A DNA stretch of 64,000 nt, from contig NZ_JAHLPV010000002.1 of assembly GCF_018918095.1 (NCBI RefSeq), positions 1 to 64,000 of the forward strand, given 5' to 3'. This stretch comes from Acetivibrio sp. MSJd-27. Its GTDB lineage: Bacteria; Bacillota; Clostridia; UMGS1840; HGM11507. This document shows, piece by piece, positions 30,797 through 50,970 of this stretch. The first letter of the stretch is position 1. Every line of letters begins with the position of its first letter. The position numbers were made by a program, and so were the translations under genes. The notes under the pieces were generated by a model that worked only from the letters and a program-made list of their open reading frames with translations, ran no database searches and was not told the DNA's origin.

Positions 30797-30816
30797 TTTG
30801 TCGATTTTTTCGACAT
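30797..30816. promoter_or_regulatory. Inverted pair of Spo0A-box-like sites
   Basis: TGTCGA and TCGACA form a perfect inverted repeat (30799-30815); the flanks give TTTGTCGA and TTCGACA, close to the Spo0A box TGTCGAA. It is about 220 bases upstream of the agr promoter. Confidence 0.45.
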
Positions 30817-30988
30817 GAATTTTATTAAGCCTTGATTTGTTACAGAGTCCATTTACAAGAATATCAGAGTTTTTCCTATGCTAAATTTAAAATCCAAAGG
30901 AAATAAGGTTAAAAACCATATAGCATCCACAAATCTTTCTGAATTTTCTATTCTCACGGCATTTTTTCTTTTTTTCTCTTGATTTTAG

Positions 30989-30996
30989 TGTCGAAA
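30989..30996 (+). promoter_or_regulatory. Spo0A-box-like site before agr promoter
   Basis: TGTCGAAA, an exact match to the core 0A box, 19 bases upstream of the -35 element at 31015. The location suits activation or repression by Spo0A, encoded 4 kb away. Confidence 0.5.
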
Positions 30997-31014
30997 TTGT
31001 TCTGTTTTTTTGGG

Positions 31015-31044
31015 TTGCTTTGTATTGGACAAGCCTGTTATAAT
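31015..31044 (+). promoter_or_regulatory. Promoter of agr operon
   Basis: TTGCTT, 18 bases, TATAAT with TGT before it (extended -10). The leader before agrB would be about 320 nt. A second, weaker extended -10 (TGTTATAAA, 31335-31343) lies just before agrB. Confidence 0.55.
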
Positions 31045-31128
31045 GAATTCACGAGACAAGACAAAATCACAAAGATTTCTCAGCGCACCAATAGCTTAAC
31101 ACTTTGTATCCCCTTTGTGGGGGTGCCA

Positions 31129-31251
31129 ACCGCATGCCGATTTTACCGGCATGCCGGAGGCGGCATAGCCGTCCCCTTCTTCTCCGGAAGAAGGCTTTCC
31201 TATGATACCCCAACCTTTCTCTTTTGTAGGGGAGGGTCTTCGGACCCTCCT
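31129..31251 (+). other. Hairpin-rich agr leader
   Basis: Three perfect 8-bp hairpins in a row: GCATGCCG/CGGCATGC (31132-31154), CCTTCTTC/GAAGAAGG (31175-31194) and GGAGGGTC/GACCCTCC with a TTCG loop (31231-31250). None is followed by a T run, so these are not plain terminators. They could be an RNA element or dispersed repeats. Confidence 0.5.
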
Positions 31252-31368
31252 GTACACATAGCAGAGTCAAGGGGAAAGCCAGGCCAAAAAAATATTTTCT
31301 GCACATTGTGTGTAAAAGTTCTCATTGAAATCTTGTTATAAAATCAAATTGAAGTTAGGAGTTTCAAA

Positions 31369-31971
31369 ATGTTTCATAAAATGGCCTTAAGTATTTCAGA
31401 AGCTATGAAGCAAAATAATCAAAACCTCAGCAAGGAGAAAGCGGAAGAAATTACATACGGTCTGGAGATTCTCCTTTATGAAATTTTTCTCTTCGGTGCT
31501 GCATTCCTGTCGGCTTTGCCCTTCGGGTTATTTTTCAACATGCTGTCGGCTGTAATAGGTTATGCTTGTATACGTGGCTTTGCCAGCGGCGCTCATGCCA
31601 GAACAAGAGCTATCTGCTTCATTTCCTACTTTATTATGTTATACATCAGTGTGCTCGTGCCTGTTTTTCTTTTGAAATCATACTCTTTCCAATTGATGAT
31701 GTTGCTTTTCTGCATTGATATGATCCTTTTGCTGAAATACGCACCAGGAGACACGATGGAAAATCCCATGACGGATGAAAAGAAGGTCAAGCAAAAAAAG
31801 GTCTTATCCTGCCTCTCGCTGACCGCTATTTTTATTGTATCATTCTTCTTGGGCGATACTATACCGCTTTACGCCAACAGTCTGCTTTTGGCCGCGTCCT
31901 TTGGATGTGTTATGACGACTCCCCTTATGTACCAGTTGTTAGGCTGCAAGCGTAAGCTTTCCACTTTATAA
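31369..31971 (+). CDS. agrB: AgrB-type peptide-processing membrane protease
   Basis: A 200-residue membrane protein of the accessory-gene-regulator B family. The catalytic pair His 76 (in SGAHARTR) and Cys 83 keep the seven-residue spacing of staphylococcal AgrB (H77/C84). About six hydrophobic segments follow the N-terminal amphipathic part. It should cleave the C-terminus of AgrD and close the cyclic autoinducer. AGGAG stands seven bases before the ATG. Its TAA stop lies inside the TTATAAC end of an R1-like repeat, which continues downstream. Near-identical 25-base direct repeats (AAATCTTGTTAT) flank the gene at 31318 and 32090. Confidence 0.92.
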   Translation: MFHKMALSISEAMKQNNQNLSKEKAEEITYGLEILLYEIFLFGAAFLSALPFGLFFNMLSAVIGYACIRGFASGAHARTRAICFISYFIMLYISVLVPVFLLKSYSFQLMMLLFCIDMILLLKYAPGDTMENPMTDEKKVKQKKVLSCLSLTAIFIVSFFLGDTIPLYANSLLLAASFGCVMTTPLMYQLLGCKRKLSTL

Positions 31972-32020
31972 CCTCGCTGTAGGTTCTCCATTTCTAAAGT
32001 GGCGGGTATCTTATTTAAAG
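31966..32020 (-). repeat. Diverged R1-like copy at the agrB stop
   Basis: Minus-strand ends are AAATAAG and GCGAGGTTATAA, with CCCGCCACTT inside. The TTATAA end includes the agrB stop codon. Confidence 0.5.
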
Positions 32021-32107
32021 AGCAAGCGGCGAGCATAATCTTGCGCTTCGCTCGGTTGAAACGCCATTAAGATAATTTTGCTACGCAAAAGTGTTCAATG
32101 AAATCTT

Positions 32108-32226
32108 GTTATGACCTCGCCAAAATGTCTCCGCTTTTTAGCGGTGGGGAATTCACTTAATATTTTCGGACGAGGCACAAGTTCCCGCCGAACATACTGA
32201 CAATAGCGGGAAAATCCCTTATTGAA
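32108..32226 (-). repeat. Dispersed element R1, diverged copy F
   Basis: Minus-strand ends are TTCAATAAGGG and GACATTTTGGCGAGGTCATAAC. The inner part has a CCGC/GCGG hairpin and differs from other copies. It separates agrB from the next gene of the agr set, in the 275-base gap. Confidence 0.6.
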
Positions 32227-32246
32227 ACTGAAAGGAGTTTTTTGGA

Positions 32247-32540
32247 ATGATTACCAAAGAGTTGATGTACGAATTACAGCTGGAGGATCAAAAAAAGGAA
32301 GCCTTTCAAATGCGCTATTACCTTGTCACCTGCCTCCGGCAGGACTTATACTTCCGCTCGCAGATAAGCTACGGCGTCCAGCTGGAGAAGCAGTGCGAAC
32401 AAGGAACGGAAGAAATGTTGCTCCCCTGCGTCTCCCTGAAAAAGGAACGTGCTTCCTCCATTTTGGACGCTCTTTACAAAAACCACGTCACAATCGTGGA
32501 TTCCGATATGATTGTGGAGGATATCATCGATCTTTATTAA
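32247..32540 (+). CDS. Small 97-residue protein in agr locus (DUF6514-like)
   Basis: A 97-residue soluble protein, no signal or membrane segment. It contains RYYLVTCLRQDLYFRS, SYGVQLEKQ and a C-terminal DSDMIVEDIIDLY. The pattern resembles small Firmicutes proteins annotated as DUF6514, but this is from memory and not certain. It lies between agrB and agrD, an unusual position since these two are normally adjacent. AAAGGAG is nine bases before the ATG. The role is unknown; a link to agr expression or peptide maturation is only suggested by location. Confidence 0.75.
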   Translation: MITKELMYELQLEDQKKEAFQMRYYLVTCLRQDLYFRSQISYGVQLEKQCEQGTEEMLLPCVSLKKERASSILDALYKNHVTIVDSDMIVEDIIDLY

Positions 32541-32615
32541 AAGCATCATGCTTTAATGAGATATACACGCAACTTACTAACAACAACTATACTTTTGTCT
32601 AAGGAGGTGAACTGA

Positions 32616-32750
32616 ATGAAAAGAATGTTAATGCTGAGCTTAAGTGTTATCGCAGGATTAAGCCTTTTTATCGCACAAATCACAACAGTCGGCGCTTGCC
32701 CTCCTTTTGCGGTTTATCAGCCCGAAGTACCCGCTTCCTTAAAGAAATAA
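32616..32750 (+). CDS. agrD: AgrD-type cyclic autoinducer precursor (44 aa)
   Basis: A 44-residue precursor beginning MKRMLMLSLSVIAGLSLF (amphipathic/hydrophobic leader) and ending ACPPFAVYQPEVPASLKK. The YQPEVP motif is the conserved AgrD C-terminal recognition tail, and the single Cys (residue 28) would form the thiolactone. In Listeria AgrD the Cys is followed by four residues before Y-E-P-E; here five residues (PPFAV) come before YQPEVP, so the ring is either CPPFA or one residue larger. AAGGAGG precedes the ATG. A strong terminator follows at once. No other ORF competes. Confidence 0.9.
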   Translation: MKRMLMLSLSVIAGLSLFIAQITTVGACPPFAVYQPEVPASLKK

Positions 32751-32762
32751 TCTGATTTACAT

Positions 32763-32787
32763 AAAGCCGGATGCAAATCCGGCTTTT
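32763..32787 (+). terminator. Terminator of agrB-agrD operon
   Basis: AAAGCCGGAT/ATCCGGCTTT with a GCAA loop and T run, 12 bases after the agrD stop. Confidence 0.88.
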
Positions 32788-32832
32788 TGCTTGCCCTCAA
32801 AAGAAGAAGCCTATATACGGTTTTAAGATGAC

Positions 32833-32870
32833 AAAAAAGCCTCGGAACGCAAATATGTGTCCCGAGGCTT
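32833..32870 (-). terminator. Terminator of the AgrC-like kinase gene
   Basis: AAGCCTCGG (32837-32845) pairs with CCGAGGCTT (32862-32870), with a T run on the minus strand, about 220 bases after the kinase stop. The stretch between shows no convincing gene. Confidence 0.75.
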
Positions 32871-33091
32871 CTACTCATTAACCGAGAAACTCTCCCCTAC
32901 GATTGCCACAGAATTGCTTTATTCGGAGTGATGCTCTTGCGGATTGCAGCATCTGCTCTGTATGTAGGCACAGTCACTTTTTCCCATCACAGTGCTGCTT
33001 CCCCTACTTATTACACGCTTTCTCTGCCACGGGCATCGCCCGCAAACGATCCTCTCGATTAGAGAAGACTTTCTGTCTTTCCAGGCAGAGA

Positions 33092-34444
33092 CTACACTTT
33101 CAATGGTTCCATCCTCTTCACATGGGCCAATTCAATGGACAGAATTTGCACAAAGGTTTTCCCAACCCTCCTTGTCTCCAAAGACAATCGATTATTGGTA
33201 TTCACAATATGATTTACCTCATACAGGCCGATCCCACTATGCCCTTCTTTGCTGGAAAAGCCCCGCTGCACGATCTTCTCACGATCAATTTCCCCCTCAT
33301 AGGTATTGCTTATACTGATCTTCTGCACATTTTCTTCAACAGAAAATTTGACATCTATCTTTCTGTCCCGGGATTCCGCCGCAGCTTCCAGCGCATTGTC
33401 CATCAAGATGCCGAATATCCTGTCTATCTTGGGCAGAGCCAAGGCATTGGTGTTGACCGTCCCCAGCACGGAAAGATTCATCTCGATGTTCTTCGCCTCC
33501 GCAATCACGATCTTGGAAAGAAAAACACCATAAAAAGCAGGAGCGTTTTTGAAATGGGAGTCCACAATCGGTGTGGTTTTACAGATGGAATACTCTGCCT
33601 GGGCAATCTTTATCTGCTCTTTTAACCCATTCCAGTCTTCCAGATAGACACAGCCGTTGATCGACTGAATAAAATTGGGGAAATCATGCTTGAATTCCCT
33701 GAGTTTCTGCAAAGAAATTTCCATAGATTGACCAGTCATTTTTAAGACTTCAACCTCTTTTTCCCGTATTGCCAATTGATTTTGCTTTCTGATATTATAG
33801 AGACTATAAAAAATAATCACGAACGCAGAAAAAAAGTTAAAAATAATCATAAAGGCCGAAACTGTATTATGACTATAATCAAAATATAGAATATTCGGAA
33901 CAACTAGCATCATTGTCAAAATTATTTGTATAATAACAGTATAACTTTTTATATCATAAAATTCTATTTTATATTCTTTGTTTTTCTTTTTAAAAGCATA
34001 AACTATCATATTCAGCATAAATAGAAATAAAACTGTAGCAAATCGTAATATTACAATCCCAAAAGAAGCAGTCTCAGCTAATTGCCCCACTGATGCGTTA
34101 ATCTTTAATAAATTCATGCCTATCATGGCAATAAATTCACAAATCATTGACACAACTAAATGTGAAAAAGTATAAAGAAAAGTTTGAATGGTATTACTCT
34201 TTATAATGAATCGATAGCCTATAAACATAGCGGCCATTGTAATGCCAAAAGAAGTCAGTAAAGTATTTTTCACAGGCACAAACATAGGAATTAGATTTAC
34301 AACTGTCATAAATAACACTGAGACAGCAAGTCTTCCTACAGATACATCCGCACGATTGTTAACCATCAAAACTAAATTGACTGACAAAAATATAATGACA
34401 AAAGTGAAGGCTGCCAAAACTGCATCCAGAATAAAACCCTCCAT
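33092..34444 (-). CDS. AgrC-like membrane sensor histidine kinase (GHKL)
   Basis: A 450-residue peptide-sensor kinase. About six or seven membrane helices fill residues 1-220. A short coiled linker (225-245) leads to the phospho-acceptor His 253 in REFKHDFPN, then the N-box at MDNALEA (Asn 350) and the G-box SGIGL (403-407), as in the HPK10/AgrC family. It is convergent to agrB-agrD, has its own promoter (34469-34497), and no LytTR AgrA gene is near. The closest response regulator is Spo0A, 317 bases away on the same strand. It should sense the AgrD peptide; the phosphorylation partner is not known. Confidence 0.88.
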   Translation of the reverse strand: MEGFILDAVLAAFTFVIIFLSVNLVLMVNNRADVSVGRLAVSVLFMTVVNLIPMFVPVKNTLLTSFGITMAAMFIGYRFIIKSNTIQTFLYTFSHLVVSMICEFIAMIGMNLLKINASVGQLAETASFGIVILRFATVLFLFMLNMIVYAFKKKNKEYKIEFYDIKSYTVIIQIILTMMLVVPNILYFDYSHNTVSAFMIIFNFFSAFVIIFYSLYNIRKQNQLAIREKEVEVLKMTGQSMEISLQKLREFKHDFPNFIQSINGCVYLEDWNGLKEQIKIAQAEYSICKTTPIVDSHFKNAPAFYGVFLSKIVIAEAKNIEMNLSVLGTVNTNALALPKIDRIFGILMDNALEAAAESRDRKIDVKFSVEENVQKISISNTYEGEIDREKIVQRGFSSKEGHSGIGLYEVNHIVNTNNRLSLETRRVGKTFVQILSIELAHVKRMEPLKV

Positions 34445-34468
34445 AAAAATCCCTCCAAATCTAAGAAT

Positions 34469-34497
34469 ATTTTAATATTTTTCCCCTTATAAGTCAA
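34469..34497 (-). promoter_or_regulatory. Promoter of AgrC-like kinase
   Basis: TTGACT, 17 bases, TAAAAT on the minus strand, about 25 bases before the start codon, downstream of the spo0A terminator. The kinase is thus separate from the spo0A transcript. Confidence 0.65.
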
Positions 34498-34669
34498 TAA
34501 AAAAGTTTTTATTACAGAAAAATACAATTCTCCGAGTTGTGAGCTCGCCGCCTATGTCCCTGCTTAACCGCTGTATTCGGGAGAAAAATAAGATGACAAT
34601 CCCATCCCCGCGCCATCTTACAGATGAACTTGTTCGCAGCGAGCAGAGCCCTCACAGGTAAAACCTGAA

Positions 34670-34730
34670 TATGCGAAAAAATAACTTTCGACTTTGCATT
34701 GGCAGTGTCGAAAGTTATTTTTTTCGCATA
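34670..34730 (-). terminator. Terminator of spo0A
   Basis: A very long stem (about 23 bp, 34670-34692 with 34707-34730) with T runs on both strands. The arm contains TGTCGAAA, equal to a Spo0A box. The remainder of the 317-base gap (34500-34660) shows nothing recognisable. Confidence 0.85.
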
Positions 34731-34761
34731 TATCTGAAAAAATATCTTTCAAAGAACAAAC

Positions 34762-35559
34762 TTAGTGTAATTTCGAAAGATTCTGCATCCGCAGTTTATC
34801 CGCGATCATTGCAATAAATTCAGAATTTGTCGGTTTCCCACGGTTGCTTTTCACCGTGTATCCAAAAATGCTGTTCAGAGTTTCCGTATCTCCTCTGTCC
34901 CAAGCGACCTCGATCGCATGGCGGATTGCCCTTTCCACTCTGGTCGCCGTTGTGTTAAACTGCTTGGCAACCATCGGATAGAGTTCTTTTGTGACGGAGT
35001 TAATAATATCAATATTCAGAAACACTTCCCGGATGGCATGTCTCAAATACTGATATCCCTTAATATGAGCGGGAATCCCAATCTTATGGATAACATTGGT
35101 GATCTTCTGCTCGATCAGTTCCTCCGAATTCTTTTCCGTATGTACAGGTATAGAAGGTGCCGGCGTCCCGCCCGTTTGGGGTGCTGACACGATTCCTTTG
35201 GCGACATCCATGATATACTCATTGGAACATGGCTTTGCAAGGAAATAATCCGCCCCCATTTCAATCACTTTGCTTATAATCTTCTCTAAAGTAACTGCAG
35301 AAACGATAATCACGTTCATATGGTTCAGCAAATTATAGCTGCGCAATCGGTCTAAAACCCATAGCCCATCAGCAAAAGGCATGATAATGTCCAGAAGCAG
35401 GAGATCCGGTTTGAGCTTTTCCACCAGTTCCGGAACATTTCTTCCATCTTCTGCGACTCCAACGACTTCAAAAGAGCCGTCCTCCTCCAAATCTCTATAT
35501 AAGAGATCGGTGTACTTTTTATTGTCATCGACAATGAGGACTTTAATCTTATGATCCAT
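34762..35559 (-). CDS. spo0A: Sporulation master regulator Spo0A
   Basis: A 265-residue response regulator. The receiver has the acidic pair in IVDDN and the phospho-accepting Asp in LLLLDIIMP (about residue 57), and the Lys of FLAKP. The C-terminal DNA-binding domain has the Spo0A-specific [27 protein letters not shown] and [10 protein letters not shown]. Its presence marks the organism as an endospore former. A GTG at 35571 overlaps the AGGAG site, so the ATG at 35559 is used. It has a sigma-A-like promoter; no sigma-H promoter was recognised. Confidence 0.97.
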
Positions 35560-35613
35560 CTGTTCGTGCACTCCTATTCAATTTTACTACAACCATACAC
35601 TAACAACTTGTTT

Positions 35614-35642
35614 ATTATACTACAAATTTCAAGGAAAATCAA
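35614..35642 (-). promoter_or_regulatory. Promoter of spo0A
   Basis: TTGATT, 17 bases, TATAAT on the minus strand, about 55 bases before the start codon. Confidence 0.65.
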
Positions 35643-43677: not shown

Positions 43678-46600
43678 CTAGTCATTTTGGGGATATACTA
43701 TCGCTTCGCCAGATACGTGGATTGGTTTACTTGGCAAACCATCACTTGGGTTATCATTTGGTCTTTTATATAAAACATGGCCGCCTTTATCTTCAAGCAT
43801 TTCGTCCGGCACATTAATAGAAAAGGCATTGTGAGCGGTAGGATTTGAACTGTTTAAGATTTCAACCCATATTTTAATTCTGGTTGTCTCATTTGGCGGC
43901 AGAGGGATTTCAAACACCTGTTCTGCAGCGACAGAGATATAGTACTGTCCTGTAGGATCCGGTTGGACAAAATCAGATGCAGCACCCTGTATTTGTTCTA
44001 TAGGAAGATTTTCAATTGGGCCATCGTTCACTTGCCACCTTATATTAAACAAGTTTCCCTCAAACAGATAGCTGAAATACCTTGTTATATTATCTTCACT
44101 GCTGTTATAAATTGAAATGTTATACTCATTAATGATACCAAAGCCGGGGTTCAAGCATGGATTATCTTCCCATCTTTTGATCTGCAGCTGCTGCAGCGTC
44201 TCATCAAATATATATTCCTGGGTTCTGGAAAGAGTCGTAAATATACTCTGACGGGCTTCAAATTCCGGGTAATTGTTATTCAATAACTCCGCATCATTAT
44301 AATTCCCCTGACTATCCGTCACCAAGCTGTTTATCCATGCCTTGTCGAATTCCTCGTTTGGTTCAAAGGCTGTCTTGCCGGCATAATATCCTGTTCTGGC
44401 GGCTTCCGGAATCTCTTTTCCTCGAATATCGACGCAGTGAGACGGGGCAAAGATCCATGTATCATCCTCCCTAGGGCTAGACACCGGCTCTCCGTTGGGA
44501 TGCCCTGCCTTCGCGTTTCTTCCGACGATGCCGTCCCCCTGATATGTGTGCCGGACGATGGAGGAATCCACCATATTCCAGCGATTCCCGGGCGACAGGG
44601 ATGAATTGTGGGTTGAAAAATAGTCCAGTTTCCGGTTTGTAAAAAATTGATTGGTAATCCCAAAGGTCAGGCGGGTTTCCTGATCCAACGGAAAGGTATC
44701 GTCAATGACATATTGAAAATCCGCTGAGATGGTTTCCTGTGTTGCCGCTTTCCCTTTGATGGTTTCCAGCGTTTCATATGGAGCGCGCAAATTGCCATTC
44801 TCTTTCCACGAATTAAAGGTTTGATCAGACGGCTTTTGATGATAGGCCGCCGTGGCGAAGCTGACTGTTCCGGCTGTCACCTCAAATTCCATCATCAAAT
44901 CAACGCCCCCCCATTCCCCGTTCTGACAGAACAGCACATCAATAATGTTATGTTGATTCCACAACACATCGGTTATCCATCGCGGTTTTGTACTGCTGAG
45001 TTCAGAAAAAGTATAATTATAAACCATACCTATATTTTGAGCTTTATTGTTTACCCACATCTGATTGATTGTTACATTGTTATTAACCGTCGCATCATAA
45101 AATACCGCGTCAAAATAGGTATTTCCCTGAACGTGCTCAAAATCAAAATCCAGATAGTCGTCATTGACGCTCCGGGTAGAAAATACCTTATAAATCCCCG
45201 GCGTCAAATTGTCAAATTTGGCAAGCATTGTTCCCTGCAGCAGGCCTTCCACGCTTGTATCATCCATCAAATCGCAGGGACGTACATGTTCCGGATGGTC
45301 GTCAAAGATGAGATAATGTTCTTTTCCATTTTCATCTGTTTTTCCATGTTTGAACTCCACTTCCACCGGCTGCGCCTTCCCCCCCATATCGGAAACCTGA
45401 AGCGCGTGGAACGCGTTGGAGGCAAGTGCCTTTGCATTTTCCCCATTCTCCTCCAGATCCGAGGCTTCAAACAACCGCGCTGTGGTAAGCAATTTCTGAT
45501 TGTTATTCTGCGCGCTGTTGCTGTACAGAGGAATATCCTCAAACACTTGATCCGCCCCGTCCGTCCCAGCGGGCAGCGTGAAGTTCATTCTCTGTTTTTC
45601 ATACCCGATTGCGGGCGCTTGGGCATCATTTTCCCATTTCATATACACAATCATGGTATATTCGGTTTTCTTTGTCCGTGCGTTTTTGGACAAACGGAAG
45701 GGAATGTCGTTGTACCCCACTTGCAATCCGCTCAGTTCCGCCTGGGAGATTGTTTCCCCGGATTTTACGATGGAGAAGATATAGTTCCCCTGCCAGGGCG
45801 CGGTCAAATTCAAATAATAGGTTTGTCCTGCTTCCAGCTGCTGGACGATGCCGTCCCCCGGCTTCATTCCGTTCGTTCTTCCTTCTATCAGTTCCCCTGC
45901 GCTGTTATACAGATATGCGTACATCAAAGAGGCATCATTCTCCATTTCATTGGAGATGATATACAGCCCGCTTTCCGGAACAGTAAATTTGACATAATCC
46001 TCATCGTTGTCATAGTTGACGCGCCCGGATATATCGTTGGAGATATCAACCAGCGCCGCCTGTGCCATGGTATTCCCGTACGAATCGGCGGTCTGAGAGT
46101 TGAGATTCATCTGTGGTATCACATCCTGCCCCTCGCTGTCCCGGTTGTAGAAGATAGCGGAATCAATCGTATTGGTGTCCACATTTGTATACCAGCCGGC
46201 CTGCCCTGAAACAGGTATGGTTTTCTTATAACTGCTGCTTTTTACCCATTGTCCCTCTTTGAAGTAATCGTTGATTACCTCCGCGTTGGAAGCTGTCTGG
46301 GCATTGTTTATCATATTCCCCGCAACCATCATATCTCTGTCCGGCGCAATATACTGCTCGCAGTATTTTCCATCCATTTTCAGCGCATAACTGTAATCCA
46401 TATCGTTGGATGACTGGGCTGCCAAACCGCTTGACATGCTGCGGACACTTGCAGAAGCCGGCTGTGTTACCGGACCGGTTGCCAAATCCGTATCGAGCTG
46501 AAGTCCCGGCGGCTGGCTTTGGATACCATCCGGCGTTGCGACCAGCGGCGTCATAAGCGGCACCATACTGCCCTCGTACAGGTCGCATCCTTCCAGATAA

Positions 46601-49600
46601 AATATTTTCATTTGGTATCCGGTTATATTTGCAGGGGTTTTCATCTGAAGCTTCACCGTGCTTACCTCCGACGGCTGAAGCATGGAACTGACAGAGATAT
46701 AGTCATACAGCATGTTGTCCTCATCATACAGAGCCATCAAAAACATGGCTGTCTGCGCTTCCTTGGAATTGTTTGTGATTTCCGCCTGATAAGCCATGGC
46801 GCTGTCTGCTTCCAGAAAGCTGCAGCTATATTTATGAGCGACGGACAGGGGATTGACATCGCCAATCGGATCAGGGTGAATTGCAGAATAACCGAATGCT
46901 GACTCTCCGCTTCCATAGCTTACCGATGCGCGGCAGGTTTCTCCGTTTTCTTCCGTGCTTACTAAAACCTGATATAACCCATTCTCCAGCTCCGAAAGGG
47001 GGAAGCTCTTACTGTACTCACCCTCTGTTCCGCAAACGATCTGATCCATAGCCAGAAGTCTGTTTGACGGGCTAAAAACTCTGATAAAAATCTTTTTCAA
47101 ATATCGCATTCTAAGCATGTGATCGTTTATATGCCCGCTGACGGTGATCTGGTTATCTTCCATACTCGCCTCTGCAACCAGGCATCTTGTCTTTTGCAGT
47201 TCCAATATGTAACTGCCTGTCTGTGTACTGCTGTTGTGACGCACCACTACATAATAAGTTTCTCCCGGCTTTAAGCTAACCACAAGCTTTTTCTTTTCCA
47301 TGCTTTCCGTGCCGGTTACGCGATCACGTTCCCCGCCGTTTTCCCGGTAGACAACCGCGTTCATTTCTTGCCCGGAAAGACGAAGAACAAATTCAAATTC
47401 TTTATCCTCCTCATTCTTAAGCTTATAATAATGCCCTTCTCCCGGATTGTCAACAGCAACGCTGACTCTTCTTGTAACATTTACAAGCGGCGCGGATTCA
47501 AAGCTTGTACCATATCCTACATCCTCTGCTGCCGATGGATTAAACGTCACATTATACAAAACAGCATAATTGTATTGATGAGAGGCGCTGAGATCCCAAA
47601 CATCTTCAAAATCAAATCCTGTATAATAATTTTGATTTCTTAGCTGGCTTTCTGTTCTTGATTGGTAAGAAGCATTGATGTCACCTTCACTTGTACCTTT
47701 ATACCAAGGGGTTTCCAAATAGAAATTGTTGGAGCTCTGATCGATATCTTGGTTGATATTTGCACCGTAAACAGCGCATATTCCACCGATTTCCAGATTA
47801 TTGCTCATCAAAATTCCTACATTGTAGGTACGTTTGATCCACGATGTGGATTCCTCCATCAATGATGTTATTCCACCCACATAATTATTTCCTGTCAATG
47901 TTCCACAGTTAAAACAATCTTCCACTTTTGATGTCCGCAGGTATCCTGTGATTCCACCAATAAATTGGTATCCGTCGAGAATTCCATAGTTTAAACATCG
48001 TTTCACTAATGTGTTTTGATCGCATGCTCCGGCAATTCCTCCGATATTCACTCTGCCTTGAATATTGCCATTAAAACTACAGGCTTCCAATGTGCTTTGA
48101 TTGACAAAACCAGCAATTCCACCTACATAGCTATCTCCTTTGATATCGGCGTTGTAAATATGAATATTCTTTAGCGTTGCTTGAGAAACCGAACCAAACA
48201 GTCCAACATTGGACATCTCCGACTGATTGATTTGAAAACCGCTTATGGTATATCCTTGCCCATCAAAATGACCTTTAAAGCAGTCGTCAATATAAATTCC
48301 TCCAGGTGTGGTAAATACTCCTCCTATTGGCTCAAAACTGTTTCCGTCCGCATCGGTTTCACTAAAAAAGATGCTGTTCATCAGTTTGTAGTGAGAAGTC
48401 ATATTGTATCTTATATTGCTTAGATCATTTTTGGTATAGATCAGGAATGGCTCCGCAGCAGTTCCTTTTCCTTCCAAAAAGATTCCAGCAGCAGCTGGAA
48501 CAGAAGAATGCATAAAATATGGGAATTTATAGACATTGTTTTCACTTATAGACCACCAATCATTAAAATCAAATCCTACATAGCTTTCCTGACTCTGCAT
48601 TTGGGCGTTTGACAGCGGAGTAAACGCTCCCTGTTTGTCCCCATCCTTTGTTCCTTGATAATATGGGCTGGCTAGATAATAGTTATTCTGGCTGGAATCA
48701 TTCTCAATATTTGTGCTATCGAAATAACCTACAATTCCACCTATCCGATCGGTATCACAGGTAAGAATACCAATGCTATAGCAGGCTTCTACAGGTGCAC
48801 TTTCAACGATAGAACCTAAAATACCTCCTACCGCATAAGTTCCAATTAGCTTCCCCGTATTGAAGCTATTTGATACAGAACCATATCTGGAATAGGAACT
48901 TATTCCTCCTATATCACTTCCGATAATTGTACCATAATTCATACAGCTATCGTAAAATCCACTGTCGTCAATTCCTCCACAGATTCCGCCCGCAATTTCT
49001 CCCTCAACCGTTCCGGAAAAACTCAGCATCTCCAAATGGCTGCCATATGCTGCACACCCGACAACACCTCCTGCCCAACTACCTTTTATGTCTCCGTTTC
49101 TTATATGCAAATACCAAACTTGTCCTGATGTAATCCCAAAAAGACCTGCTTCATAGTCATCATTCCGGTTAATGTGAAGACTATAAATTGAATGATCTTC
49201 GCCATAATATTCCCCTGTAAAAAATTCGTTCATATTACCGATAGGCTCAAATCCTTTTCCGTCATTGTAAAATGCACCGCCCGCAGCAAAATCAGCTTCA
49301 GTAAACGTGATGTCCGCCGTCTGATAATAGTGGGCATCTAAGTTCAGCCTAACCTTATCCAGATCTTCCTTAGAAGATACTCTAAATGGATCGGACTCTG
49401 TGCCGCTTCCAATCAAGCCATTGGATACATAGGCTTCCGACATGCGTAATTCCGGCAGTTTGCTCTCCGGATTAACTGTCCATATTTTCAGAAAATTGAA
49501 ATCCCGGTAAAGCTCCGGCAATTCTGCTCTTTTATCAACAGCCTCTTCCGGCGGTATCGTTTCCTGAAGGGGTTCATTGGGTTCCAAAGTCTCTGCCGGC

Positions 49601-50970
49601 TGCGGTGTTATGACAGGCTCCGCTGTATAATCCGGCAATATAGGTTCCGCAGTATTCTCCGGTTCCAATGTTTCAAGATCAGGTGTCTGCGTCTGAGCAG
49701 GATTTTCCGTCTCTTCTTCGGTCATATTTTCAGAGGCAATCGATGCTTCCTCTTTCGTTGTTTCTTCCTCAGATTTTATCGTATCTAACGGCTCCGGCTC
49801 TTTTGTCGTTTGCTGCAAGCTTTTCTCAGTTCCTGATGATGAATTGGGAACACCGCCGCTCAGCCTCTCTTTATGTGACAAAGGTTTTTTCTCAATGAAC
49901 GACGGCTGCGGTTCCTCTGACGGTACCGGAACCTCGATCACAGGAGCGGTATCTGCAGAAAAGACACGCTCCACCGTTCCGCCCTCTATAAGACCGAAAT
50001 TTGATTCCGACGAGTTTATACCTTCGCCCTGTCCGCTACTATAACAATCTTGAACAAAGCTTCCATCCGAAACGATTCCCACAATGCTGCCGGCCTGACC
50101 AGCCGACTGGATATTTACGGCTGAGAAGCTGGTATGAACCTTTCCTTTGTTCAAAAGCTTACCGATTATACCACCAACATTTGTCTCTGCGTCTCCTCCG
50201 ATCGTCCCATACATTTTACAATTGCGAATCCACCCCTCGGAAACACCTGCAAGCAGTCCTGCATTCTCTTTTCCACTTGTATCTAATATTTCATCCGATT
50301 GATACTCCAATGTGAGATTTTCCACTCTGGCATTCACTCCAAGATTCGAAAAAAAGCCCAGATTTGACGTACTGTTTGATGAATATTTGAGGTTCGACAG
50401 AGTATGATGCTGTCCATCGAAATATCCATAAAAATATTCTATGGGGCTCCATTCTTCCGATAAAACAATATCATCTTCCAATTGAAAATAAGCGGCATTA
50501 TTTTCTCTGAGTATCTTTAGCTGTGCTTCATTGGCAATCCGATATGGAGAATCCTTGGTTCCTTCTCCTGCGCAAGGCAGATCATCATCCGAGAGAGAAA
50601 AACGGTTTATCGCACTATCCTGATAAAATTCAGCTGATTTAATCGTACCACGCGCAGTCAGATAACGGATCATCTTATCCGCATTTTCCCTTGATTCCAG
50701 CCCGATGGTTACTTTTTTTCTATTTTCATCTGTTTCCATGATTTGAAAGGACGCGTTCCTTTTTCGATAACAATCCAATGCATAATCAAAATCACCTTTT
50801 TGCCTATAGAGAACAATAATTTTCTGATTTACTTGTATCTCAATCTCTGGAGCATCCTGTATATTTTTTGAAATACGTTCTTGCGTTTGATCAGCAGATA
50901 CAAAATTATATTGAGAGAAGAGAGCCACAATCAGAATAACTGCTAACTTTCGAATTCTTATTGTTTCCAT
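43678..50970 (-). CDS. Giant exported GLUG-repeat protein (2430 aa)
   Basis: Signal peptide at about 1-26. Three beta-helix-like blocks with GLUG-type units (GGIVGY, GGIAGF, VGGITG and similar) lie at about 130-335, 510-840 and 840-1165. Blocks one and two are separated by a Pro/Glu/Thr-rich linker (340-485). A prepeptidase C-terminal-like beta sandwich follows at about 1165-1265 and a second at 1635-1740 (NDEDYVKFTVPESGLY). The last 700 residues match nothing I recognise. No SLH, LPXTG or membrane anchor is visible. Possibly an adhesin or matrix protein. It has a leader with a short ORF and a terminator. GGAGG is six bases before the ATG. Confidence 0.85.
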   Translation of the reverse strand: METIRIRKLAVILIVALFSQYNFVSADQTQERISKNIQDAPEIEIQVNQKIIVLYRQKGDFDYALDCYRKRNASFQIMETDENRKKVTIGLESRENADKMIRYLTARGTIKSAEFYQDSAINRFSLSDDDLPCAGEGTKDSPYRIANEAQLKILRENNAAYFQLEDDIVLSEEWSPIEYFYGYFDGQHHTLSNLKYSSNSTSNLGFFSNLGVNARVENLTLEYQSDEILDTSGKENAGLLAGVSEGWIRNCKMYGTIGGDAETNVGGIIGKLLNKGKVHTSFSAVNIQSAGQAGSIVGIVSDGSFVQDCYSSGQGEGINSSESNFGLIEGGTVERVFSADTAPVIEVPVPSEEPQPSFIEKKPLSHKERLSGGVPNSSSGTEKSLQQTTKEPEPLDTIKSEEETTKEEASIASENMTEEETENPAQTQTPDLETLEPENTAEPILPDYTAEPVITPQPAETLEPNEPLQETIPPEEAVDKRAELPELYRDFNFLKIWTVNPESKLPELRMSEAYVSNGLIGSGTESDPFRVSSKEDLDKVRLNLDAHYYQTADITFTEADFAAGGAFYNDGKGFEPIGNMNEFFTGEYYGEDHSIYSLHINRNDDYEAGLFGITSGQVWYLHIRNGDIKGSWAGGVVGCAAYGSHLEMLSFSGTVEGEIAGGICGGIDDSGFYDSCMNYGTIIGSDIGGISSYSRYGSVSNSFNTGKLIGTYAVGGILGSIVESAPVEACYSIGILTCDTDRIGGIVGYFDSTNIENDSSQNNYYLASPYYQGTKDGDKQGAFTPLSNAQMQSQESYVGFDFNDWWSISENNVYKFPYFMHSSVPAAAGIFLEGKGTAAEPFLIYTKNDLSNIRYNMTSHYKLMNSIFFSETDADGNSFEPIGGVFTTPGGIYIDDCFKGHFDGQGYTISGFQINQSEMSNVGLFGSVSQATLKNIHIYNADIKGDSYVGGIAGFVNQSTLEACSFNGNIQGRVNIGGIAGACDQNTLVKRCLNYGILDGYQFIGGITGYLRTSKVEDCFNCGTLTGNNYVGGITSLMEESTSWIKRTYNVGILMSNNLEIGGICAVYGANINQDIDQSSNNFYLETPWYKGTSEGDINASYQSRTESQLRNQNYYTGFDFEDVWDLSASHQYNYAVLYNVTFNPSAAEDVGYGTSFESAPLVNVTRRVSVAVDNPGEGHYYKLKNEEDKEFEFVLRLSGQEMNAVVYRENGGERDRVTGTESMEKKKLVVSLKPGETYYVVVRHNSSTQTGSYILELQKTRCLVAEASMEDNQITVSGHINDHMLRMRYLKKIFIRVFSPSNRLLAMDQIVCGTEGEYSKSFPLSELENGLYQVLVSTEENGETCRASVSYGSGESAFGYSAIHPDPIGDVNPLSVAHKYSCSFLEADSAMAYQAEITNNSKEAQTAMFLMALYDEDNMLYDYISVSSMLQPSEVSTVKLQMKTPANITGYQMKIFYLEGCDLYEGSMVPLMTPLVATPDGIQSQPPGLQLDTDLATGPVTQPASASVRSMSSGLAAQSSNDMDYSYALKMDGKYCEQYIAPDRDMMVAGNMINNAQTASNAEVINDYFKEGQWVKSSSYKKTIPVSGQAGWYTNVDTNTIDSAIFYNRDSEGQDVIPQMNLNSQTADSYGNTMAQAALVDISNDISGRVNYDNDEDYVKFTVPESGLYIISNEMENDASLMYAYLYNSAGELIEGRTNGMKPGDGIVQQLEAGQTYYLNLTAPWQGNYIFSIVKSGETISQAELSGLQVGYNDIPFRLSKNARTKKTEYTMIVYMKWENDAQAPAIGYEKQRMNFTLPAGTDGADQVFEDIPLYSNSAQNNNQKLLTTARLFEASDLEENGENAKALASNAFHALQVSDMGGKAQPVEVEFKHGKTDENGKEHYLIFDDHPEHVRPCDLMDDTSVEGLLQGTMLAKFDNLTPGIYKVFSTRSVNDDYLDFDFEHVQGNTYFDAVFYDATVNNNVTINQMWVNNKAQNIGMVYNYTFSELSSTKPRWITDVLWNQHNIIDVLFCQNGEWGGVDLMMEFEVTAGTVSFATAAYHQKPSDQTFNSWKENGNLRAPYETLETIKGKAATQETISADFQYVIDDTFPLDQETRLTFGITNQFFTNRKLDYFSTHNSSLSPGNRWNMVDSSIVRHTYQGDGIVGRNAKAGHPNGEPVSSPREDDTWIFAPSHCVDIRGKEIPEAARTGYYAGKTAFEPNEEFDKAWINSLVTDSQGNYNDAELLNNNYPEFEARQSIFTTLSRTQEYIFDETLQQLQIKRWEDNPCLNPGFGIINEYNISIYNSSEDNITRYFSYLFEGNLFNIRWQVNDGPIENLPIEQIQGAASDFVQPDPTGQYYISVAAEQVFEIPLPPNETTRIKIWVEILNSSNPTAHNAFSINVPDEMLEDKGGHVLYKRPNDNPSDGLPSKPIHVSGEAIVYPQND

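Follow-up and report, generated by a model that had tools for sequence, protein, structure and literature searches.

The agr-spo0A locus

The genome of Acetivibrio sp. MSJd-27 (GCF_018918095.1; 104 contigs, 98.8% complete) carries an Agr-like peptide-signalling locus beside spo0A, the gene for the master regulator of sporulation, within the first 64,000 nucleotides of contig NZ_JAHLPV010000002.1 (C2:1-64000; this whole stretch is hereafter the window). Five genes lie within ~5 kb: agrB, a gene of the DUF6514 family and agrD on the plus strand, followed on the minus strand by a sensor kinase gene, convergent to agrBD, and spo0A:

31369..31971, plus strand: agrB, 200 aa, peptide-processing membrane protease (PF04647, E 6.9e-32)
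32247..32540, plus strand: DUF6514 gene, 97 aa, between agrB and agrD (PF20124, E 2.3e-12)
32616..32750, plus strand: agrD, 44-aa precursor with core ACPPFAVYQPEVPASL (TIGR04223, E 1e-7)
33092..34444, minus strand: AgrC-type sensor kinase, orphan, 450 aa (PF14501, HATPase_c_5/GHKL, E 1.8e-15)
34762..35571, minus strand: spo0A, 269 aa, canonical (TIGR02875, 310 bits, cut-off 200)

The original prediction, made from the nucleotide sequence alone, had described agrB, a 97-aa gene, agrD, a convergent HPK10-type kinase and spo0A within 5 kb, and family matches bore out all five. AgrB retains the catalytic GAH-x6-C motif with its conserved histidine and cysteine (here GAHARTRAIC), AgrD scores above the TIGR04223 cut-off (31.9 bits against 19), and Spo0A combines a Spo0A_C domain (PF08769, E 5.8e-45) with a receiver (PF00072, E 6.5e-22). 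The DUF6514 gene had no counterpart among the scanned agr loci of relatives, and no paper on DUF6514 turned up in the library searched.

The kinase comprises a helical membrane N-terminus, an H-box reading FKHDFPN and a GHKL domain. Its best named matches were DcuS/MalK (3e-18) and staphylococcal AgrC (1e-14), both far below curated cut-offs; the H-box is of the AgrC/GHKL type, and no HisKA domain was matched in the protein. A profile built from its clade (described below) matched the kinase module of Staphylococcus aureus AgrC in the PDB with an E of 1.5e-35 (structures 6e52 and 4bxi), and the N-terminus was also helical in a predicted structure of the window kinase (predicted template modelling score, pTM, 0.40).

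No LytTR regulator is encoded within the 64-kb window, as had been predicted, and a whole-genome search placed LytTR domains in only two places, on contigs C1 and C9, both outside it. The C1 protein has no receiver domain. The C9 protein (38990) has one, and is the sole LytTR response regulator of the genome; it reads in two frames at an A7 run, and its own AgrC-like kinase follows immediately and is distant from that of the window. This second locus (L081:9685-11661) is without agrBD, and a gene named as integrase-like from its sequence only lies upstream of the regulator. The window kinase resembles the clostridial Spo0A orphan kinases in that no response regulator gene, spo0A apart, accompanies it. 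By membership, AgrB, AgrD and an AgrC-type (HPK10, GHKL) kinase are present and an AgrA encoded with the kinase is absent; because AgrA was looked for and not found, we class the locus as an incomplete Agr system, Agr-like as far as the kinase.

AgrC-like kinases with no adjacent regulator

A contig scan with the window kinase alone as query returned no matches, and one with an alignment of its relatives as query did. Several of its highest-scoring relatives were without a regulator, and further members were fetched from the order of genome G382 and from named records (Pseudobacteroides cellulosolvens and a Bacillota metagenome-assembled genome). In the resulting tree, 13 AgrC-like kinases from at least seven families, the window kinase among them, formed one clade (support 98/96). 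None of the 13 had an adjacent response regulator, whereas all 15 kinases of the sister group did, and the label 'no regulator' required three changes on the tree against 15.0 in shuffles. An AgrA consistently co-occurring with this kinase, which would have refuted the original inference, was not found. The kinase gene was convergent to agrBD in 9 of the 13 cases, and neighbouring genes, agrBD excepted, were mostly unrelated. Phage and plasmid collections held no close relative of the clade kinases, and within the order of G023 that genome was the only one found to hold a member.

The precursors of all nine clade loci that have an agrD, the window included (core CPPFAVYQP), share the signature [CS]xP[FW]xxYQP; none of the AgrDs that the same scan detected in loci of the regulator-paired or thermocellus type carries it. 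Since agrD is a separate gene, its sharing of the clade signature supports the placement of the kinase. The window kinase probably belongs to a clade of orphan AgrC-like kinases that function without AgrA.

Two Pseudobacteroides-type genomes, G405 and G407, each carry two AgrA-less agrBDC loci (L224:8775-13468 and L226). In their second-locus precursors serine replaces cysteine (ASIPW, ASIPF), and this substitution suggests that the mature peptides would have lactone rather than thiolactone rings. Both G407 loci belong to the clade and include agrBD. The single LytTR regulator of that genome is the partner of a kinase of a different type (His_kinase/7TM-DISM), so that each of its two clade kinases probably depends on a different receiver from that one.

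Genomes G347 (L071), G117 (L074), G395 (L235), G397 (L238) and G182 (L241) contain AgrBDC loci that also lack AgrA but form a second group, separate from the clade, with the precursor core C[TV][SA]W..EQP. At L071 and L074 a radical-SAM-like open reading frame adjoins agrB, and in G347, a single-contig genome, the sole LytTR trace is degenerate.

A possible route from the peptide signal to Spo0A

Relatives of the kinase are usually encoded convergently to agrB-agrD, in a gene that overlaps or abuts an upstream LytTR regulator (agrBD><agrC-agrA). The window repeats this pattern with spo0A occupying the agrA slot. Non-coding features of interest lie between spo0A and the kinase and upstream of agrB:

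34676..34723, no strand: hairpin between spo0A and the kinase, probable terminator (22-bp arms, 91% complementary, z -6.7)
30799..30815, no strand: inverted pair of Spo0A-box-like sequences, TGTCGA-TTTTT-TCGACA, with one perfect box TTCGACA at 30809
30989..30995, plus strand: perfect Spo0A box TGTCGAA, ~45 bp upstream of the extended -10 element
31036..31044, plus strand: candidate extended -10 promoter TGTTATAAT for agrB, as read from the sequence

Given the strength of the hairpin, spo0A transcription probably stops there; spo0A and the kinase gene are thus unlikely to be cotranscribed, and the kinase probably has its own promoter. The 730 bp upstream of agrB contain two perfect Spo0A boxes against 0.07 expected (P 0.002), although the 30799..30815 site doubles as a weak terminator-like hairpin, which makes its role uncertain. 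A further perfect box at 34706 was discarded as a Spo0A site, as it belongs to the hairpin after spo0A. A 26-nt direct repeat (88% identical) has one copy ahead of agrB (31314-31339) and the other before the DUF6514-agrD pair (32087-32112), and could be a common control site. Elsewhere in the window, a 2430-aa open reading frame (43681-50970, minus strand) is unusually long for the stretch.

Links to the Spo0A pathway also occur elsewhere in the clade. Spo0E inactivates Spo0A in Bacillus. A Spo0E-like gene shares the strand of the kinase and lies within ~150 bp of it in two genomes from different families and genera, directly upstream in G382 (PF09388, E 6e-9) and directly downstream in G427 (E 8e-10). 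With 2 to 10 Spo0E-like genes per genome, chance is an unlikely source of two adjacencies of this kind in the 12 clade kinases other than that of the window: the Poisson probability was 3e-5 (300 bp) or 1e-3 (2 kb), in a test framed after the first case had been seen. In two further genomes (G260 and G403) a Spo0E-like gene lies 1.6-3.5 kb from the kinase. As direct adjacency was confined to two orphan-clade loci, we rejected Spo0E-like neighbours as a general trait of these kinases. In C. difficile, Spo0E binds Spo0A (PMC11115286). Overall, AgrA-less AgrC-like orphans probably adjoin Spo0A-pathway genes in several lineages.

We propose that AgrB, as in its family, would cleave and cyclise AgrD to yield a small ring peptide whose core lies near CPPFA, and that the AgrC-type kinase would sense this peptide at the membrane, as its family, its convergence with agrBD and the shared peptide signature suggest. 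The kinase would then most likely phosphorylate Spo0A, the product of the neighbouring gene, instead of AgrA, with the outcome that crowding promotes sporulation. The boxes upstream of agrB hint that Spo0A may in turn feed back on peptide production. The phosphotransfer step has precedent, as the accepted mode in clostridia is for orphan kinases to phosphorylate Spo0A directly (PMC11210211), and the proposed passage of the signal from this kinase to Spo0A is now better supported than by lone adjacency because of the clade without regulators, the shared AgrD signature and the Spo0E-like neighbours.

Several observations weigh against this proposal. The window kinase sits on a long branch and, despite its 98/96 support with the 12 unpaired relatives, its placement with the regulator-paired group was not rejected (approximately unbiased test, p 0.22). 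Adjacency of kinase and spo0A occurs only in this genome and in none of the other relatives fetched; the order's eight other genomes have neither AgrB nor such a kinase, and their spo0A has other neighbours, so that we rejected conserved adjacency. The strong hairpin parts the two genes here as well. The Spo0B-like helical domain SPOB_a, considered as a mark of Spo0A specificity, was rejected as not discriminating (11/13 orphans, 17/28 paired kinases), and the relatives showed no enrichment of Spo0A boxes ahead of agrB, so that we rejected these as a family feature. Clade genomes other than G424 have LytTR regulators somewhere, some of them without an adjoining kinase in G023 and G222. Spo0E-like proteins may have partners other than Spo0A (PMC11115286), and the Spo0A kinases tabulated in a 2024 review are all HisKA proteins, with none of the AgrC/GHKL type (PMC11210211). 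The original suggestion that the kinase may pass the peptide signal to Spo0A is partly supported, by the absence of AgrA and by the Spo0E-like neighbours in G382 and G427, but the adjacency of kinase and spo0A is not conserved.

These observations leave room for other readings. The kinase might act in trans on a LytTR regulator whose gene lies on C9 or in a part missing from the assembly, in which case this would be an ordinary agr system with an unusual gene order. RgaS-RgaR of C. difficile, an AgrC-like kinase and a LytTR regulator encoded apart (PMC10602386), offers a model, and the receiver-LytTR protein at C9:38990 a candidate, whose frameshift at the A7 run could be an assembly error; with 104 contigs and 98.8% completeness, an AgrA gene could also be missing. 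We nevertheless consider such a trans partner unlikely, given that the C9 regulator directly precedes an AgrC-like kinase of its own, one distant from the window kinase, that two genomes with clade kinases (G407 and G424) have no free LytTR regulator, and that the whole clade consistently lacks an adjacent regulator. Neither the pairing on C9 nor the hairpin behind spo0A had figured in the original prediction.

Three more Spo0A_C proteins are encoded in the genome: one on C42 with a receiver, abutting its own PAS-GAF-HisKA kinase (L104:3520-5998), one on C4 with a receiver and no adjoining kinase (L103:9448-10203), and one on C11 consisting of the DNA-binding domain alone (L102:3318-3686). The kinase could phosphorylate another receiver outside the LytTR type, such as the two receiver-bearing paralogues, of which the one on C4 is without an adjoining kinase. 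We regard this as quite improbable: the C42 protein already abuts a HisKA kinase, and neither paralogue was seen beside agr genes, as the canonical spo0A is. It is similarly improbable, in our judgement, that the position of spo0A reflects a chance change of gene order beside an agrBD-kinase set that was horizontally gained or is decaying and is unlinked to sporulation. The lack of AgrB in eight other genomes of the order, the varying spo0A neighbourhood there, the hairpin between the genes and the mostly unrelated neighbours of the clade kinases, agrBD aside, would all fit such an accident; set against them are genes that are all intact, an AgrB that keeps its catalytic motif, two independent Spo0E-like neighbours in the clade and two perfect Spo0A boxes upstream of agrB.

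On balance, we give a probability of about 0.5 to a pathway from peptide through AgrC-type kinase to Spo0A, without AgrA, as the explanation of the locus, and we see direct phosphorylation of Spo0A by the window kinase as roughly an even bet. More tentatively, and with somewhat less than even probability, there may be a class of Agr systems whose AgrC-type kinase relays the peptide signal straight to Spo0A rather than to AgrA; in some lineages Spo0E-like phosphatases would serve as their dedicated brakes.

Relation to known systems

Agr peptides promote sporulation in several clostridia, and the receptor and path to Spo0A are unidentified for C. difficile AgrD1 (PMC10602386, PMC11210211). AgrC-like kinases without AgrA and with their own peptide signature are candidate receptors for such sporulation-linked peptides and, if our proposal holds, would form a one-step quorum-to-sporulation circuit.

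The window locus shares with staphylococcal-type Agr an AgrD precursor, an AgrC-type GHKL kinase and an AgrB in which the catalytic motif is kept, and with many clostridial Agr loci the convergence of agrBD and kinase; it differs from the staphylococcal type in lacking AgrA, in the DUF6514 gene that splits agrB from agrD, and in having spo0A at the agrA position. Comparable is agr1 (agrB1D1) of C. difficile, an agrBD pair that is tied to sporulation at a point upstream of Spo0A and lacks an adjoining AgrA (PMC10602386). That system promotes early sporulation through an unidentified receptor, and RgaS-RgaR does not sense AgrD1 (PMC10602386); no kinase is encoded at agr1, whereas the window encodes a candidate receptor alongside the peptide. 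The agr3 locus of C. difficile phage phiCDHM1 likewise combines agrC, agrB and agrD without agrA (PMC3901668) but, unlike the window locus, is phage-borne and not linked to Spo0A genes. In C. thermocellum, Clo1313_2818 encodes a proven AgrD-type cyclic pentapeptide to which no AgrB, AgrC or AgrA has been assigned (PMC5322536), and its agrD lies outside any agr operon, unlike that of the window. Finally, clostridial orphan kinases such as CAC0323, Clo1313_2735 and CPR0195 resemble the window kinase in the proposed direct phosphorylation of Spo0A and in lacking a regulator of their own (PMC11210211). They are HisKA-type kinases, whereas the window kinase is of the AgrC/GHKL type and tied to a peptide signal; should it act on Spo0A, it would be the first of its type to do so among the kinases of the 2024 review (PMC11210211).

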